Shown here in pieces: positions 4,510 to 11,761 of a stretch of DNA of 11,761 bases. Source of the DNA: Burkholderiaceae bacterium. Its GTDB lineage: Bacteria > Pseudomonadota > Gammaproteobacteria > Burkholderiales > Burkholderiaceae. Under the pieces are notes generated by a model, which saw only the letters and a list, made by a program, of their open reading frames with translations, searched no databases and was not told where the DNA came from. The position numbers and the translations under genes were made by a program. Numbering within the stretch: the stretch's first letter is position 1; the number at the start of each line of letters is the position of its first letter. The stretch is taken from positions 1-11,761 of the forward strand of contig CANHLB010000031.1 of the NCBI GenBank assembly GCA_947461335.1, given 5' to 3'.

Positions 4510-5004
4510 CTAAATATTTTGCAGGACGGACTTCGCTAGCAATAGATCCTGCCAAAACAAAGCCTTATCTTGTGGTTTAGCAAGGATATGAGCCAAGTCA
4601 AAAGTTGCAATGACTGGAATTTCTTCTTCACTTCCAGAGTGAAGGGCTAAAACGGTTTCACGCAACTGCGGTAAAGCATCCTTCTCACCAGTGATTTTTT
4701 GAGCCACAGAGCCCCCAAATGCGACAGCAACTACCGGCACACCATTACTGGGAAGCACAAGTTGACTGAGAGTTTCAGAGGGGTTTTTCCAACTCCATTC
4801 TTGGGAACTCAGGCCCAATACCCGAATCACATTCTCAAATAAAGCCTGGGCATCACCTTGGGCCAGATTGCCAAAGAACCACCAATTCGCCTGTGGTGGT
4901 CTACTTAGAACGCTTGGCTCGGCTAATAGCTCTTGAGGGCTATCTTTGGAGGTCCACTGGGTAACGCCCATTTCTTTGAGGAAGCTTGCATGTGTATTGC
5001 TCAT
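4510..5004 (-). CDS. Candidate DNA polymerase III psi subunit, uracil-DNA-glycosylase-like (HolD-like)
   Basis: I assign no certain function. The 164-residue product begins like E. coli HolD: FLKEMGVTQWTSK matches QLQQLGITQWSLR, with the Trp at position 17 in both. That N-terminal peptide binds the clamp-loader collar in E. coli. Two further stretches also resemble psi: LFENVIRVLGLSSQEW (55-70) against LVSDVLRALTVSPDQV, and ILAKPQDKALFWQDL against LRANPTARAALWQQI. The body also follows family-4 uracil-DNA glycosylases: WWFFGNLAQGD where LIGEAPG stands, VPVVAVAFGGSVAQ (89-102) for PRVIVALG..AAQ, and IPVIATFDLAHILAKP (129-144) for PVIVTYHPAYLLR. The protein has no cysteine, so no Fe-S cluster; the HP of the catalytic motif is DL, and the segment carrying the PFVGRAG-like motif is missing. 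Enzyme activity is therefore unlikely. Its ATG overlaps the rimI stop (ATGA), which suggests translational coupling; E. coli holD is also next to rimI. An automatic pipeline may call it hypothetical or a uracil-DNA glycosylase. Confidence 0.85.
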   Translation of the reverse strand: MSNTHASFLKEMGVTQWTSKDSPQELLAEPSVLSRPPQANWWFFGNLAQGDAQALFENVIRVLGLSSQEWSWKNPSETLSQLVLPSNGVPVVAVAFGGSVAQKITGEKDALPQLRETVLALHSGSEEEIPVIATFDLAHILAKPQDKALFWQDLLLAKSVLQNI

Positions 5005-5537
5005 AGCTCTAGCTTAATGGATTTAGCCATGACAATGGCATCTTCACGCTTACCTGTTTGAGCATCTAATGGGTAGTAGTTATTTCTGACACCAATCTGC
5101 TCATAAGCCAATGATTGGTACAAATTCACAGCAGCAATATTAGAAGGCCTTACTTCCAAAATAATTCTAGGCATCTTTTGCTGGGCTGCTACCCCCTCAA
5201 TTGCTGACATCATTCTCGAACCAAGCCCCAGTTTTCGTAATTGAGGAGACACAGTAATATTGAGCAAATGTAATTCATCTACAGCAGGAAACAGGATGCA
5301 GTATGCCCAAAGTATTGCGGGATCTAAGTAGGATCCTTTAATCGCCTGATCTACTTGTGGACGAATACAGTAAGCCCAGTGTCCAGCTGCCAAGGAATCT
5401 GTAAAGTTGCCTCTTGTCCAGGGATGAAGATGGGAGGTAGCTTCTATTTTTAGCACTTCATCTAAGTCTACAGTCTGCATTGGCAAAAAGGAGAGCTCAG
5501 CTATTCCTGCGGAAGGATTGGTAACAGACTCGGACAT
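5001..5537 (-). CDS. rimI: Ribosomal protein-alanine N-acetyltransferase RimI
   Basis: This is a GNAT-fold enzyme that acetylates the N-terminal alanine of ribosomal protein S18 using acetyl-CoA. The 178-residue product shows the fold in order: EATSHLHPW for the substrate-side helix, ELHLLNITVSPQLRKLGLGS with the acetyl-CoA pyrophosphate loop at 99-106, LEVRPSN with the likely catalytic Glu128, and NLYQSLAYEQIGVRNNYYP with the likely general acid Tyr140. The 12-residue spacing between those two equals that in enteric RimI, and REDAIVMA closes the family pattern. The protein is about 30 residues longer than E. coli RimI because of an N-terminal tail and an insertion near residues 60-75. The start ATG is read from TAATG shared with the tsaB stop, with TTGAGG about 10 bases upstream. 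The tsaB-rimI pairing is very common and supports the call. Confidence 0.94.
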   Translation of the reverse strand: MSESVTNPSAGIAELSFLPMQTVDLDEVLKIEATSHLHPWTRGNFTDSLAAGHWAYCIRPQVDQAIKGSYLDPAILWAYCILFPAVDELHLLNITVSPQLRKLGLGSRMMSAIEGVAAQQKMPRIILEVRPSNIAAVNLYQSLAYEQIGVRNNYYPLDAQTGKREDAIVMAKSIKLEL

Positions 5538-6259
5538 TATTTAAATGCCTCAATACGCTCTTGCGTTGTTAAGGCAACTTTGTTGCGAATATAGAGAGGC
5601 TCAAGATCTTGCACATGACATTGCTGACCAGCCGACCACATTTGTTGGGCACACTCCAAAATGCCTAAGGCAGAAATATGAATTTCTGAATCTAGGGAGC
5701 TTGATGGCAGCTTCTGAGCAATACCACTCATAAGGCGCTCACCATAGGTCTTTAGAGCACTTCCAGCTAAAAACTCAATACCAAGAAAGTCGATCTCTTC
5801 GGGTTTAGAAAGATGGATATCGCCGACGCGGGCGGGTAATTTTTGATGAATCGTTTCGTACTTAGCCCAGTAAATTTCATCCATGCGCGCATCTAGGGCT
5901 ACAACAAAGTGATTAGGCTTTGCTTGGTCAAAAGATTGTGTATGACTTAATTGTGCTGCAACAGCATCAAAACTGACTACAGGTAAAACGGATAGAGCAT
6001 TGGAGATTGCAAGTCCTTGCACTGCAGCCACAGCAAGCCGGACACCTGTAAATGCTCCAGGACCAATACCAATGGCTATCGCATCAAGCTCTGCTAGTTT
6101 TACATTTGCTTCACTTAAAAGTTCTTCAATCCATGGAAGTAATAGCTGGCTAGCGCCAGCCGATACCAATTCATGTCGGAGTATTGGCGCACTGTCATCT
6201 AAAGATAAAGCCACCGAACACCAAGCAGTTGATGTGTCGATGGCTAGAATACGTGTCAA
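5537..6259 (-). CDS. tsaB: tRNA t6A biosynthesis protein TsaB (YeaZ)
   Basis: TsaB is the non-catalytic scaffold of the TsaBDE complex, which adds threonylcarbamoyl to A37 of ANN-decoding tRNAs in the cytosol. The 240-residue product has the ASKHA-like N-terminal core: ILAIDTSTAWCSVAL at 4-18, the hallmark GIGPGAFTGVRLA at 64-76, and LDARMDEIYWAKY. The C-terminal LEPLYIRNKVALTTQER is also diagnostic. Length matches the family (about 230). The start is a TTG at 6259: it places MTRILAIDTS where the family begins, and an in-frame TAA lies about 14 codons upstream with no other start between. Its ribosome site is weak. The gene lies 33 bp after the epimerase stop, and no terminator is seen in the gap, so it may be read from the propionate module or from a promoter I cannot identify. 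Confidence 0.94.
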   Translation of the reverse strand: MTRILAIDTSTAWCSVALSLDDSAPILRHELVSAGASQLLLPWIEELLSEANVKLAELDAIAIGIGPGAFTGVRLAVAAVQGLAISNALSVLPVVSFDAVAAQLSHTQSFDQAKPNHFVVALDARMDEIYWAKYETIHQKLPARVGDIHLSKPEEIDFLGIEFLAGSALKTYGERLMSGIAQKLPSSSLDSEIHISALGILECAQQMWSAGQQCHVQDLEPLYIRNKVALTTQERIEAFK

Positions 6260-6292: not shown

Positions 6293-6763
6293 TTATGAAC
6301 CCAATCCGACAATGACTTCGGGTGGCGCCTGAACAAGCTCAATAAGCACCCCTTCCCCACAAATTGGGAACTCATCGTTCCCCCTTGGGTGCACAAAGGT
6401 AATGTCATAGCCTGCTGCGCCCTTACGAATGCCCCCAGGAGCAAAACGTAAGCCTTTGGCAGTGAGCCATTCAACCGCCTTAGGAAGATCATCTACCCAT
6501 AATCCAATGTGATTTAGAGGGGTTTGGTGTACGGCTGGTTTCTTTTCAATATCAAAAGGCTGCATCAGATCTACTTCAACTTCATTAATACCTTTACCAA
6601 TAGCGCAAATATCTTCATCTACGTTTTCACGCTCAGAAACAAACGTGCTCTTATATTCAAAGCCCAACATATCAACCCATAATGTCTTGAGGCGTTCTTT
6701 ACTTTCTCCACCAATAGCAATTTGTTGTATACCTAAAATTTTGAATGGCTTATTTGACATCAT
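6293..6763 (-). CDS. VOC-family protein, probable methylmalonyl-CoA epimerase
   Basis: This is a 156-residue protein of the glyoxalase/bleomycin-resistance (VOC) fold with two beta-alpha-beta-beta-beta repeats: one begins at [12 protein letters not shown], the second at [19 protein letters not shown]. Placed 6 bp after pccA and in one run with pccB, meaB and the mutase, it is the natural candidate to convert (2S)- to (2R)-methylmalonyl-CoA, the step between carboxylase and mutase. Metal ligands by position appear to be Gln14 (where epimerases usually have His), Asp65 in VEVDLMQP, His85 in LNHIGL and Glu142 in GVLIELVQ. A Gln-acid-His-Glu set is known in human glyoxalase I, so metal binding is still plausible, but the enzyme is not a textbook epimerase and could be another VOC lyase. 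Two ATG codons are adjacent (6763 and 6760); AGAGG is better spaced for the second. Confidence 0.9.
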
Positions 6764-6769
6764 TTCCTC

Positions 6770-8806
6770 TCATTCGAAACGAATGATCAATTGATCCACC
6801 GCTAAGCTATCGCCCTCAGTAGCGCAGATCTCTGCAACTACTCCATCTTGCATAGCAGAAATAGTATTTTCCATTTTCATGGCTTCAATAGATGCTAGCT
6901 TTTGTCCAGCCGTAACGGCATCGCCAGCTTTAACTGCGATCTTTGTTAAAAGACCAGGCATTGGAGACATGACCAACTTAGAGTTATCTGGCGGCAGCTT
7001 CACTGGCATACGACGCTGAAGCTCAGCACCTAATGGGCTCAACACCATACACTCATAATGAGCACCATCTAACACTAAAACGTATTTCACGCCACGGCGC
7101 TCAACCTGGGCTGTCACTTTATGAGTACCATTGATAGTGGCATTCAGACAAATTTGACCTGGTCGCCAGTTGCTAACGATGTCGTAACGACTAACGCCAT
7201 CTGCTTCATCGATATAGACAGAATAAATTCCATCCTTTAGTTCAACTCGAATAGGCACTTCGATTGGGTCAGCCATTGAGCCTGTTTTTTTACCTGTGAC
7301 AACAACAAACTTCTTGGCAATAATCATTTCATGTCCCGCTAGCTGGCCATCAATCATCTTAATGTGCTCAAGATAGCGATAACGCATAAATGCAGCTAAG
7401 GCTGCTAAGCGTTTAGGATCCACCGGCTGCACAGAATCCTTTTTGAAGCCTTCTGGATATTCTTCTGCAATAAAACCCGTTGTGAAATCGCCATTCACAA
7501 AGCGTGGATGTTGCAACAAAGCAGATTGAAAAGGAATATTGGAATGAATACCGCGAATCACAAAGTCATTTAATGCAGCACGCATCTTTTCAATGGCTTC
7601 AGCTCGATCTTTTCCATGAACAATCAACTTTGCAATCATGGAGTCGTAGTACATGGGGATCTCACCACCCTCATATACGCCAGTATCTACCCGCACACCA
7701 TTTTCACACTCTGGCGGACGATATTTCACTAGGCGGCCAGTAGAAGGCAAGAAATTGCGGAAGGGATCATCGGCATTAATACGGCATTCCATTGACCAAC
7801 CGTCAAGTTTTACATCTTCTTGCTTGAATGCCAATTTTTCACCAGCAGCAACACGAATCATTTGTTCAACGAGGTCAAGACCTGTGATGCTTTCAGTTAC
7901 TGGGTGCTCTACTTGTAAACGGGTATTCATCTCAAGGAAGTAGAAAGACTTATCCTTACCCACCACAAACTCCACTGTACCTGCGGATTGGTAATTGACT
8001 GCACGTGCCAAAGCAACTGCTTGTTCGCCCATTGCCTTACGGGTGGCAGGATCAATGAATGGGGAAGGCGCTTCTTCGATGACCTTTTGATGACGACGCT
8101 GAATCGAGCAGTCACGTTCATTGAGATACACCAAGTTGCCATGGGCATCACCTAATACCTGAATCTCAATATGGCGTGGGCCTTCAACAAACTTCTCAAT
8201 GAAGATACGATCATCGCCAAAGCTATTCAATGCTTCTGTTTTGCAAGCTACAAATCCTTCTGCTGCCTCTTTATCATTAAAAGCCACTCGCAGACCTTTG
8301 CCGCCGCCTCCCGCAGAAGCCTTAATCATGACTGGGTAGCCAATGCCTTGAGCAATCTTGACCGCCTCTTCAGGAGTAGCAATAGCCTCGTTATGACCTG
8401 GAATAGTATTGACTTTAGCCTCTATAGCAAGCTTCTTAGAAGCGATCTTGTCACCCATGGCTGCAATCGATTGGTACTTGGGTCCAATAAAGACAATACC
8501 CTCTTCTTCACAACGTTTAGCGAACTGCTCGTTTTCAGACAAAAATCCATAGCCTGGATGCACCGCTTCTGCTCCTGTATCTTTGCAGGCCTGAATGATG
8601 CGATCGATTAGTAAATACGACTCTCTTGAAGGGGCCGGCCCAATGCATACAGCCTCATCCGCCAATTGCACATGACGCGCCTCTTTATCAGCCTCAGAGT
8701 AAACCGCAACAGTCTTAATCCCCATCTTCTTAGCTGTTTTGATCACACGGCAAGCAATCTCGCCACGATTCGCAATTAATATTTTCTTAAACATTTTCGT
8801 AGTCAT
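6770..8806 (-). CDS. pccA: Propionyl-CoA carboxylase alpha subunit (biotin carboxylase and biotin carrier)
   Basis: This subunit uses ATP and bicarbonate to carboxylate its own biotin, then delivers CO2 to the PccB site that forms methylmalonyl-CoA. The 678 residues fit the PccA class. The biotin carboxylase part spans about 5-450: FKKILIANRGEIACRV, AVHPGYGFLSENEQF (81-95), the ATP-grasp glycine loop KASAGGGGKGLRV (162-174), EMNTRLQVEHPVTE (292-305) and MECRINADDP. A BT-type linker domain follows (about 480-600) that contacts the beta subunit. The C-terminal carrier ends with EAMKMEN, where Lys644 should carry biotin. The fusion with carrier and BT domain separates it from AccC. ATG 8806 has AAAGG 12 bases upstream; the ATG four codons later would begin at the common family start MFKKILIANRGE and is an alternative. 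It lies 14 bp after pccB. A 3-methylcrotonyl-CoA carboxylase is less likely given the mutase neighbours. Confidence 0.95.
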   Translation of the reverse strand: MTTKMFKKILIANRGEIACRVIKTAKKMGIKTVAVYSEADKEARHVQLADEAVCIGPAPSRESYLLIDRIIQACKDTGAEAVHPGYGFLSENEQFAKRCEEEGIVFIGPKYQSIAAMGDKIASKKLAIEAKVNTIPGHNEAIATPEEAVKIAQGIGYPVMIKASAGGGGKGLRVAFNDKEAAEGFVACKTEALNSFGDDRIFIEKFVEGPRHIEIQVLGDAHGNLVYLNERDCSIQRRHQKVIEEAPSPFIDPATRKAMGEQAVALARAVNYQSAGTVEFVVGKDKSFYFLEMNTRLQVEHPVTESITGLDLVEQMIRVAAGEKLAFKQEDVKLDGWSMECRINADDPFRNFLPSTGRLVKYRPPECENGVRVDTGVYEGGEIPMYYDSMIAKLIVHGKDRAEAIEKMRAALNDFVIRGIHSNIPFQSALLQHPRFVNGDFTTGFIAEEYPEGFKKDSVQPVDPKRLAALAAFMRYRYLEHIKMIDGQLAGHEMIIAKKFVVVTGKKTGSMADPIEVPIRVELKDGIYSVYIDEADGVSRYDIVSNWRPGQICLNATINGTHKVTAQVERRGVKYVLVLDGAHYECMVLSPLGAELQRRMPVKLPPDNSKLVMSPMPGLLTKIAVKAGDAVTAGQKLASIEAMKMENTISAMQDGVVAEICATEGDSLAVDQLIIRFE

Positions 8807-8820
8807 TATTTTTTGCGCCT

Positions 8821-10353
8821 TTACAGAGGAATATTGCCGTGTTTACGGGCAGGATTCTTCAAGTCTTTGTCTTTTAACATTGCTAAGGAGCGAGCGATAC
8901 GTTTACGTGTTTCATGAGGCAGGATAACGTCGTCAATATAACCACGACGGCCAGCTACAAAGGGATTGGCAAACTTTGCTTTGTATTCAGCCTCGCGAGC
9001 GGTAATTTTTTGTGGATCCGATTTCTCTTCACGGAAAATAATTTCTACCGCACCCTTTGGTCCCATTACTGCAATTTCTGCCGAAGGCCAAGCAAAGTTG
9101 ACGTCACCACGTAAGTGCTTTGACGCCATCACATCATATGCTCCGCCATACGCTTTGCGGGTAATCAATGTCACCTTTGGTACAGTACAGTCTGCATAGG
9201 CGTAAAGTAATTTCGCTCCATGCTTAATGATTCCGCCATATTCCTGTGCAGTACCCGGCATAAATCCAGGCACATCAACTAAGGTAACTACAGGTATATT
9301 GAATGCATCACAGAAGCGCACAAATCGTGCTGCCTTAATGGATGCCTTGATATCTAAGCAACCCGCTAAGACCAGGGGTTGGTTTGCTACGATGCCGATA
9401 GAGCGCCCTTCCATACGTGCAAAACCAATCACAATATTTTTGGCGTAGTCAGGCTGAAGCTCAAAAAATTCAGCATCGTCTGCAATCTTGCAAATCAACT
9501 CTTTCATGTCATACGGTTGATTTGGATTGGATGGAACTAAGGTATCTAATGAAAAATCAGGCTCTTCTGTGCGATTAGCTCCCTTAATAAGAGGCGGCTT
9601 TTCTCGGTTTGATAGCGGGAGATAATTGAAGAAACGGCGCAACATCATGATGGCATCAACATCATTGTCAAAGGCAAGATCGCACACGCCCGATATGGTG
9701 GAGTGAGTCACTGCACCGCCCAGCTCTTCAGAAGTCACATCCTCATGGGTAACCGTCTTCACGACTTCTGGACCAGTTACAAACATGTAGGAGCTATCTT
9801 TGACCATAAAGATAAAATCGGTTAATGCTGGTGAGTACACAGCTCCACCAGCACAAGGCCCCATGATCAAAGAAATCTGGGGGATCACCCCTGAAGCGGT
9901 GACGTTGCGTTGGAAAATCTCCGCATAACCGCCTAGAGAAGCAACACCCTCTTGAATGCGTGCACCACCAGAGTCATTTAATCCGATAACTGGAGCGCCA
10001 ACCTTAAGGGCTTGATCCATGATCTTGCAGATCTTTTCAGCATGGGCCTCTGATAAAGAGCCGCCCAATACAGTGAAGTCTTGTGAAAAAACAAAGACCA
10101 AACGACCGTTGATCATTCCATAACCAGTGACTACACCATCGCCTGGGACAGTTTGATCAGCCATTCCAAAATCATGACAACGATGCTCAACGAACATATC
10201 CCACTCTTCGAAAGTGCCTGCATCAAGTAAAAGTTCAATCCGCTCGCGGGCAGTGAGCTTGCCCTTTGCATGTTGAGCTTGAATACGCTTTTGTCCACCA
10301 CCTAATCTGGCAAGCTCACGCTTCGCTTCGAGTTGTTGAATGATTTCCTTCAT
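8821..10353 (-). CDS. pccB: Propionyl-CoA carboxylase beta subunit (carboxyltransferase)
   Basis: PccB transfers the carboxyl group from biotin to propionyl-CoA, forming (2S)-methylmalonyl-CoA; the family works as a beta6 core. The 510 residues are normal for the family and hold two crotonase-like halves. The N-half carries [13 protein letters not shown] (125-137) and [17 protein letters not shown] (164-180), forming the first oxyanion hole. The C-half carries [20 protein letters not shown] and [15 protein letters not shown]. Asp407 in AYGGAYD stands where Streptomyces PccB has the Asp reported to favour propionyl-CoA, whereas acetyl-CoA enzymes have a hydrophobic residue; this supports PCC over ACC. 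The ATG start is firm: AAGGAG lies 6 bases upstream, overlapping the meaB stop codon. Confidence 0.96.
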
Positions 10354-10359
10354 TTCCTA

Positions 10360-10365
10360 CTCCTT
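10360..10365 (-). promoter_or_regulatory. pccB ribosome binding site overlapping the meaB stop
   Basis: Minus-strand TAAGGAG combines the meaB stop codon TAA with a strong AAGGAG site, 6 bases before the pccB ATG. This fuses termination of meaB with initiation of pccB and suggests translational coupling in one transcript. Confidence 0.75.
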
Positions 10366-11389
10366 AGAAAAATTCATGCCCCATGGACTCTAGTAAGCGT
10401 CTTGCAGCTACTGAAGCGGCCATGGTTCCTGCATTTACCTGTGCAATTAAGATTGGCAATAGTTCTTGAACTTCTGAATTGTTACGAAACGCATTTTTTA
10501 GTCCTGCATCGATGCGATCCCACATCCATGCTCCCGCTTGTTGTTTGCGACGGGATTCAAATTTGCCATTCGCTTTTTGTAATTTTTCAAAATGGGTGAC
10601 TTTATTCCATAGTTCAGGCACGCCCTTGCCATCAAGAGCACTTAAGGTAATAACGGTTGGATGCCACAACTCTTGATCATGGGATGCATGATCTGGATTG
10701 CCTTGAAAACCTAGCAAGCGCAATGAGCTCGTAATGAACAATTGCGCGCGCATTGCTGCATCTGGGTCAATATCTACTTTATTTATAGCTATCAAATCAG
10801 CAATTTCCATTACACCTTTTTTAATTGCTTGTAGATCATCGCCAGCGTTAGGTAGTTGCATGAGTAAGAACATATCTGTCATGCCTGCTACTGCAATTTC
10901 GCTTTGCCCAACTCCAACCGTTTCAACGATGATGATGTCAAAACCGGCTGCCTCAGCAACTAACATAGCTTCGCGAGTCTTCTCTGCAACACCTCCAAGC
11001 GTTCCTGAGGATGGGCTTGGACGAATAAAAGCATCTTCTAAAACGGAGAGGCGCTCCATACGGGTTTTATCACCTAGAATTGATCCGCCAGATAAACTCG
11101 AGGACGGATCAATTGCCATGACAGCAACACGATGGCCTTTTTCGATGAGATAAAGTCCTAAGGACTCAATCAAGGTTGACTTACCTACACCTGGAACTCC
11201 TGAGATACCTAAGCGAAATGACTTTCCTGTTTTAGGAAGAAGCGTATTGAGGACTTCATCAGCACGCCTGCGATGGTCTAGACGGGTTGATTCAAGTAAA
11301 GTAATGATCTTCGCTAGAGCGCGTCGCTGCTGGGGCGAAGGCGCACCAGTGAGATCATTGACTAAGGCTTGATCAGCAGCTTGGAGCAT
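10364..11389 (-). CDS. meaB: Methylmalonyl-CoA mutase chaperone GTPase MeaB (ArgK family)
   Basis: MeaB is a SIMIBI-class GTPase that gates adenosylcobalamin loading onto methylmalonyl-CoA mutase and protects the enzyme from inactivation. The family was once labelled ArgK, an arginine transport kinase, which is considered a misannotation. The 341-residue product has an N-terminal helical arm (RRALAKIITLLEST), the P-loop GVPGVGKST (64-72), AIDPSSSLSGGSILGDKTRM (92-111) typical of MeaB, the switch-like ETVGVGQSE (156-164) and the guanine-specificity motif NKVD (203-206). The C-terminal helices that dimerise end at MGHEFF. It starts 15 bp after the mutase stop with only a weak ribosome site; an in-frame TAA (the mutase stop) sits just upstream, so no longer start is possible. 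Adjacent mutase and PCC genes make the role secure. Confidence 0.95.
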   Translation of the reverse strand: MLQAADQALVNDLTGAPSPQQRRALAKIITLLESTRLDHRRRADEVLNTLLPKTGKSFRLGISGVPGVGKSTLIESLGLYLIEKGHRVAVMAIDPSSSLSGGSILGDKTRMERLSVLEDAFIRPSPSSGTLGGVAEKTREAMLVAEAAGFDIIIVETVGVGQSEIAVAGMTDMFLLMQLPNAGDDLQAIKKGVMEIADLIAINKVDIDPDAAMRAQLFITSSLRLLGFQGNPDHASHDQELWHPTVITLSALDGKGVPELWNKVTHFEKLQKANGKFESRRKQQAGAWMWDRIDAGLKNAFRNNSEVQELLPILIAQVNAGTMAASVAARRLLESMGHEFF

Positions 11390-11404
11390 GCAATTGGATC
11401 CGAG

Positions 11405-11761
11405 TTAAGTTGGTTTTACTGATTTACGAATTTGCTCAAGCACATCCTTCGCTGAAGCGGGAATTGGTGTACCTGGGCCATAAATTCCCTTTACACCTGC
11501 CTCATAAAGGAATTCGTAATCTTGTCTTGGAATAACTCCCCCCACAAAGACGATGATGTCATCTGATCCCTGTTTCTTGAGCTCGGCAATGATTGCCGGA
11601 ACTAAGGTTTTGTGACCAGCTGCAAGTGTCGAAACGCCTAATGCATGAACGTCGTTTTCAATGGCCTGACGCGCACATTCTTCAGGGGTTTGAAACAAGG
11701 GCCCGATATCTACATCAAAACCTAAGTCTGCATAAGCAGTTGCCACCACTTTAGCGCCACG
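11405..11761 (-). CDS. Methylmalonyl-CoA mutase, C-terminal B12-binding end (5' part beyond window)
   Basis: Only the last 118 codons are present; the frame is open to the window edge. They form most of the cobalamin-binding Rossmann-like domain: [18 protein letters not shown] begins at the edge, where RG should be the end of the DxHxxG motif with its axial His just outside. [10 protein letters not shown] and [12 protein letters not shown] (the SxL element) follow, then [20 protein letters not shown] and [19 protein letters not shown]. This matches the C-terminus of the large mutase subunit, which converts (2R)-methylmalonyl-CoA to succinyl-CoA. An isobutyryl-CoA or ethylmalonyl-CoA mutase small subunit would look similar here, but meaB plus pccBA and an epimerase candidate favour the methylmalonyl enzyme. 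It is the first visible gene of the minus-strand block. Confidence 0.93.

Follow-up and report, generated by a model that had tools for sequence, protein, structure and literature searches.

What is the short gene that lies directly 3' of rimI in a contig of Burkholderiaceae bacterium (GenBank assembly GCA_947461335.1, contig CANHLB010000031.1; the window, a stretch of 11,761 nucleotides)? Its 164-amino-acid product begins like psi (HolD), a subunit of the bacterial clamp loader, and continues like a uracil-DNA glycosylase (UDG) of family 4 (UDG4). We conclude, with a probability of about 0.88, that the gene encodes the clamp-loader psi subunit and that its core is a decayed UDG4 in which catalysis has been lost; the case for the decayed core is built on sequence, fold and gene order. 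More broadly, psi is most likely a decayed UDG4, and full-length glycosylases with a docking peptide most likely occupy its place in much of the gamma class (Gammaproteobacteria, the beta-proteobacteria included).

The psi model PF03603 matched residues 5–78 of the 164-residue protein with 25.5 bits (E 1.6e-5), above the Pfam cut-off of 22.2; a reading of the DNA made without database searches (the sequence-only reading) had let its case depend on such a match. It had also proposed a search with the UDG model PF03167. PF03167 gave no match to the protein, and the family-4 model TIGR00758 matched weakly (22.6 bits, E 7.2e-5, far under its cut-off of 125.3) at residues 90–161, corresponding to the last two fifths of the model. 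The only NCBIfam psi model listed scored 12.7 bits against a cut-off of 201, and the protein thus fails as an equivalog of that model; two other proteins above the Pfam psi cut-off (L098 and L082) also fall below the NCBIfam psi cut-offs. A plain phmmer search against PDB sequences returned one irrelevant chain (E 0.16), and profiles were needed to reach known structures.

The N-terminal LKEMGVTQW had been matched to the peptide with which E. coli HolD docks on the clamp loader, and the comparison agrees: residues 9–17 are identical to E. coli psi at five of nine positions, with L9, G13 and W17 in register and the Trp carrying the same residue number. In alignment A1, which joins 31 genus rows (the protein and 30 relatives) to 16 UDG4s, L9, W17, L55, G97, R115, P130, K147 and D153 were invariant and W151 nearly so; as the rows were selected by patterns containing Trp, the invariance of W17 is there by construction. 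Among 33 genus loci read without such pattern selection, 32 had the docking motif; the lone exception is cut by a contig end. The K-x3-W signature near the C terminus was present in all 31 genus rows, 47/50 UDG4s and 18/20 short psi proteins, but not in E. coli psi, where R replaces K.

The hallmarks of a working UDG4 have disappeared from the protein, as the sequence-only reading had noted. It contains no cysteine, and so the cysteine ligands of the iron–sulfur (Fe–S) cluster are absent; D136-L137 aligns with the catalytic His-Pro (HP) of the glycosylases; and there is neither a GEAPG nor a PFVG motif. Searched by pattern, the cysteine pair, GEAPG and PFVG were kept in none of the 31 genus rows and HP in 10, in keeping with the earlier suggestion that this gene represents a late stage of decay. 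Judged by its sequence, with the cluster, the motifs and the score of a UDG all looked for and missing, the gene is most likely to be classed as psi and not as UDG. A working base-excision enzyme that does without the cluster and plays no part in the clamp loader would also show a UDG fold and a weak UDG4 match, but we regard this as extremely improbable: the cysteine pair and all three motifs are lost, the docking peptide is retained across the genus, and another protein matches PF03167 above cut-off in 56 of the 61 genus genomes, though not in the incomplete source assembly. Because the genus has this separate protein, loss of catalysis need not have cost it uracil repair.

The AlphaFold2 model of the protein had a predicted local distance difference test score (pLDDT) of 85.6, falling under 50 at residues 21–30 of the linker and averaging 72 at residues 31–40. 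A Foldseek search with the predicted fold ranked solved UDG4s best and E. coli psi as the next family, so that the model qualifies both as a UDG fold and as a psi fold. Psi has been likened to dinucleotide-binding folds, and Rossmann-like folds are alike in general; the weak flavodoxin-like rows in the Foldseek output would suit a scenario in which psi and UDG4 are unrelated alpha/beta folds, the peptide was fused onto UDG4 and the cores came to resemble each other by convergence. The UDG4 and psi rows were, however, separate from those flavodoxin-like rows.

Comparison of the cores by hhalign, with the docking peptide removed, also speaks against convergence. Twenty short psi cores (six passing PF03603 in whole-genome searches, the rest picked by rimI adjacency and peptide) aligned with UDG4 at 97.2% (E 3.9e-11). 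With outside-class UDG4s, the gamma short psi cores reached 96.1% and the genus cores 98.8%. The controls, reversed profiles and rimI, gave 0.1–0.4%. The docking peptides alone gave 97.9%, in rows that had been chosen by peptide. Five Pfam HolDs together with E. coli psi reached 95.5%. Two results weigh on the other side: without E. coli psi the five HolDs gave 74–83%, and E. coli psi alone had no sequence reach to UDG4 at 2.1%; against the genus it gave 35.5%, and the controls of the HolD runs stayed under 1%. When the short and intermediate proteins encoded next to rimI were built into a profile, it found E. coli psi at 5e-9 and the core-only chain 1em8_B at 5e-5; a profile of the genus and UDG4 rows found UDG4s at 3e-20 and reached E. 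coli psi at no better than E 1.3. With the larger peptide-free sets at 95–98.8% and their controls under 1%, we consider convergence very unlikely.

Proteins that retain HP but not the cysteine pair form a graded series, which convergence would not predict. One (L102) scores above the psi cut-off and keeps THHPSHLL without the cysteine pair, and HP-type segments are likewise kept as SYHPAWLL (L207), TYHPLDLL (L205) and DHPARLL (L229). The L205 gene (positions 899-1374, genome G242), lying 5' of rimI, is read in two frames that overlap, the docking peptide standing in the first and the HP segment in the second, a frameshift or sequencing error. In a quick tree, the gamma and beta UDG4s and the decayed forms fell on one side with an SH-like approximate likelihood ratio (SH-aLRT) of 95, and the genus grouped with 22 of 23 beta UDG4s at 100; the tree comes from a quick search in which long branches meet, and it serves only to place the decayed forms among the gamma and beta UDG4s, with no firm count of losses. 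Since a full UDG4 (in G177, G156, G124 and G108) and decayed forms in other genomes occur within each of four families (f1, f4, f19 and f49), the change most simply ran from glycosylase to psi, with catalysis lost more than once. The shared ancestry of psi and UDG4 put forward by the sequence-only reading is thus upheld by core profiles, fold, gene position and intermediates; its restriction of the relation to beta-proteobacteria is too narrow, as the relation spans the gamma class.

Gene order points the same way. We gathered homologues from whole genomes and named contigs and found a homologue of the gene in 59/61 genomes of the genus, probably Polynucleobacter, including all 51 good assemblies. 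A UDG4 match occurred in 116 of 120 Burkholderiales genomes, above cut-off in 100. The sequence-only reading had placed a full-length glycosylase at this locus in related genera, and rightly: among the 104 genomes with a UDG4 match under 1e-30, the UDG4 was the immediate same-strand 3' neighbor of rimI in 100, the other four comprising one without a rimI match, two with the UDG4 elsewhere and one with it ~1.7 kb away, past the distance limit. Fifteen rimI-bearing Burkholderiales genomes had no such UDG4. Three of them belong to the genus studied here, two (G093 and G137) have a short psi-like open reading frame (ORF) 3' of rimI, and in each of the remaining ten an ORF there carries the docking peptide or a close variant of it, recognized by pattern in five and by eye in five. 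A candidate psi gene therefore stands beside rimI in 115/120 genomes, 100 as UDG4 and 15 as psi-like.

In 185 genomes of the gamma class, UDG4 was detected at 1e-20 in 143 and above cut-off in 136. Where a rimI was also listed (125 genomes), the UDG4 lay directly 5' of it in 105, 3' in 1 and apart in 19. E. coli holD occupies this 5' position: in K-12 it overlaps rimI, beside which the sequence-only reading had placed it, in the order holD, rimI, with prfC two genes on. Of the 71 loci fetched that have UDG4 5' of rimI, 23 showed prfC 3' of rimI inside the short flank (17 from 15 genomes, 6 from named contigs). Sixteen rimI loci were fetched from class genomes without UDG4, and 11 had a psi-like gene 5' of rimI (eight by pattern, three by eye) and five did not; of four rimI loci from genomes with UDG4 elsewhere, one had a psi-like gene. 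No strong UDG4 was present in any of the seven genomes that have a short Pfam HolD, whereas 143 of the 178 other class genomes have one. The order is switched between the two groups, the gene lying 5' of rimI in gamma-proteobacteria and 3' of it in Burkholderiales. As a map of psi across the class, PF03603 alone was too narrow (11/185) and was set aside for an examination of rimI neighbors; several of its weak matches are apparent noise, being RpoN-like frames by eye or frames containing stops.

The docking peptide is also found on full-length glycosylases. With the pattern L-x2-[LIM]-x-[ILV]-x2,3-W, sought N-terminal to the first cysteines of the cluster, the motif was present in 27/28 gamma and 23/29 beta UDG4s (20/29 within the last 130 residues), in none of 18 UDG4s from other classes of the phylum, and in 0.5–0.9% of shuffled N-terminal extensions; most of the seven gamma and beta UDG4s without it have a near variant by eye. 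In named genomes, among them Burkholderia, Ralstonia, Nitrosomonas, Herbaspirillum, Thauera, Methylomonas and Thioalkalivibrio, 61 of 78 UDG4s had the motif, 12 a near variant and 5 neither. An alignment of 25 of these (A3) showed intact catalytic motifs and a nonconserved linker after the peptide. As full-length enzymes carry it, the peptide probably predates the loss of catalysis.

The peptide of the UDG4s could instead bind another partner, such as the single-stranded DNA-binding protein (SSB) or the beta clamp, and have turned to DnaX only later, in HolD. Eleven UDG4 genomes without a match to chi (HolC), the psi partner, would accord with this, some of these assemblies being incomplete. 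We nevertheless hold it to be unlikely: the motif has its Leu, Gly and Trp opposite L9, G13 and W17 of E. coli HolD, although most beta UDG4s have one extra residue ahead of the Trp; and PF03603 matches the peptide, and only the peptide, inside full UDG4 ORFs of four genomes (G086, G233, G246 and G260), the last three being further class genomes found with PF03603 in which the match is the UDG4's own peptide. One ORF (L105) combines a PF03603 match above cut-off with a UDG match at 3e-34. Chi and UDG4, moreover, co-occur: chi was found in 156 of the 185 class genomes, and UDG4 in 132 of these 156 as against 11 of the 29 chi-negative ones (P = 5e-7). The source genome has a chi gene as well (G000:C170), and no second holD, which would have told against the psi assignment made by the sequence-only reading, was found in its assembly (1.68 Mb, 78.6% complete).

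Our preferred reading, a psi subunit derived from UDG4, suggests the following mechanism. By analogy with E. coli, where the N-terminus of psi is described as binding domain III of three DnaX subunits, its core as binding chi and chi as binding the SSB tail (PMC3290774, PMC3197488), the peptide L9...W17 would dock on the collar of three DnaX subunits and the folded core would hold chi, whose grip on the SSB tail would tie the clamp loader to SSB-coated DNA. The peptide and the partner gene are present and the fold is predicted; the binding itself we infer from that analogy. The ancestor in the gamma class was probably a full-length Fe–S glycosylase that already had the peptide and the rimI neighborhood. 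A full-length UDG4 persists in most sampled genomes, and where its N-terminus was read, the peptide is usually present. The short psi, of which the 164-residue protein and by extension E. coli HolD would be examples, would have lost the Fe–S ligands and the catalytic motifs but retained the C-terminal helix as well as the peptide for docking, and uracil repair in the genus can be left to the separate UDG-superfamily protein. We further think it likely that psi in most beta- and many gamma-proteobacteria is an active Fe–S UDG, docked to DnaX and linked via chi to SSB, that seeks uracil at replication, E. coli psi being one of several remnants that have lost catalysis.

Psi had previously been found only in gamma-proteobacteria, and chi in alpha, beta and gamma. 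The gene or UDG4 beside rimI would account for the psi "missing" from beta-proteobacteria that have chi; if the docked glycosylase is active, the missing psi of chi-bearing species would be an Fe–S UDG. The findings suggest how a replisome subunit originated, a part of replication having been made from a repair enzyme, and the graded series illustrates the stages by which a decaying enzyme becomes a structural component. In animal cells, UNG2 rides on PCNA and RPA, and we predict a comparable glycosylase riding the bacterial replisome. A further parallel is vaccinia virus D4, described as a UDG fold that is part of a replisome in a role independent of catalysis; it is another UDG, with A20 and not a bacterial clamp loader as partner (PMC1936997), and presumably an independent event. 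A review published in 2012 did not decide between a psi that had diverged past detection and one that was truly missing (PMC3290774), and a 2011 paper described chi with a conserved psi site where no psi was found (PMC3197488). Among the records listed, our literature search met no title or abstract opening that links psi to UDG, although the likeness may stand in psi structure papers or fold databases; by term counts, the word "glycosylase" is absent from the main texts of PMC3197488, PMC3290774, PMC8879598 and PMC13213242.

Compared with known systems, E. coli HolD (PF03603; 1em8_B, 3sxu_B) shares 17% identity with the protein over the structural match, and its gene precedes rimI whereas the gene described here follows it. 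UDG4 (TIGR00758; 4zbx, 1ui0, 1vk2) and UdgX differ from the protein in the features lost from it, and in addition the protein has a shortened core and the psi docking peptide. The psi of Pseudomonas aeruginosa (PA4679) is similar in being divergent and missed by plain homology searches; its core was modelled on E. coli psi, and it is reported never to have been hit in several transposon studies. Going by its description alone, it is set apart by twice the length of E. coli psi and a long disordered N-terminus that binds single-stranded DNA (PMC3197488, PMC8879598). As to whether the full-length genes are essential, none of the papers listed contained "uracil-DNA glycosylase" in its text.

Features of the window around the psi-like gene
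Feature	Position	Strand	Detail
psi (HolD)-like gene, core classed as decayed UDG4	4510..5004	-	164 aa
N-terminal clamp-loader docking peptide (putative)	4945..4998	-	residues 3-20; LKEMGVTQW = 9-17
Linker from docking peptide to core	4891..4944	-	residues 21-38; from AlphaFold2 pLDDT
UDG-fold core (predicted)	4513..4890	-	residues 39-164
D136-L137, place of the UDG4 catalytic His-Pro	4594..4599	-	alignments A1 and A3
C-terminal helix, K147...W151 signature common to UDG4 and psi	4513..4575	-	residues 144-164
rimI, directly 5' of the psi-like gene, overlapping (ATGA)	5001..5537	-	TIGR01575, 92.1 bits, cut-off 86.4
tsaB, next gene 5' of rimI	5537..6259	-	TIGR03725, 168 bits, cut-off 69.3

The genes follow one another as tsaB, rimI and the psi-like gene, whose start codon lies inside the rimI stop codon. 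The ORFs 5' of tsaB (6293-11749, minus strand) we take, by eye, to encode methylmalonyl-CoA epimerase, propionyl-CoA carboxylase chains, a MeaB-type GTPase and part of a B12-dependent mutase.

Some UDG4s show further peculiarities. In six rimI-adjacent ones (L014, L016, L019, L022, L237 and L279), the cysteine of KCRPP, which we take to be a cluster ligand, is replaced by Ser (KSRPP), a change seen in 2/73 of the named set; the first four, included in A3, have their other motifs intact, and the change is perhaps a first step of decay. One UDG4 frame (L015:1468-2883) has, by eye, a small-transposase-like stretch ahead of the UDG domain and no docking motif. In ten of the 18 outside-class UDG4s (L168, L171-L175, L177, L179, L182 and L184), the cluster is preceded by a peptide of the type Y[LY]R[EQ]IGV that lacks the Trp, for example YLREIGVQTP. 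These peptides aligned with the gamma and beta docking peptide at 77.4% in hhalign (reversed, 0.4%), the other eight giving 11.3%, and a diverged docking peptide might account for the presence of chi outside the gamma class.
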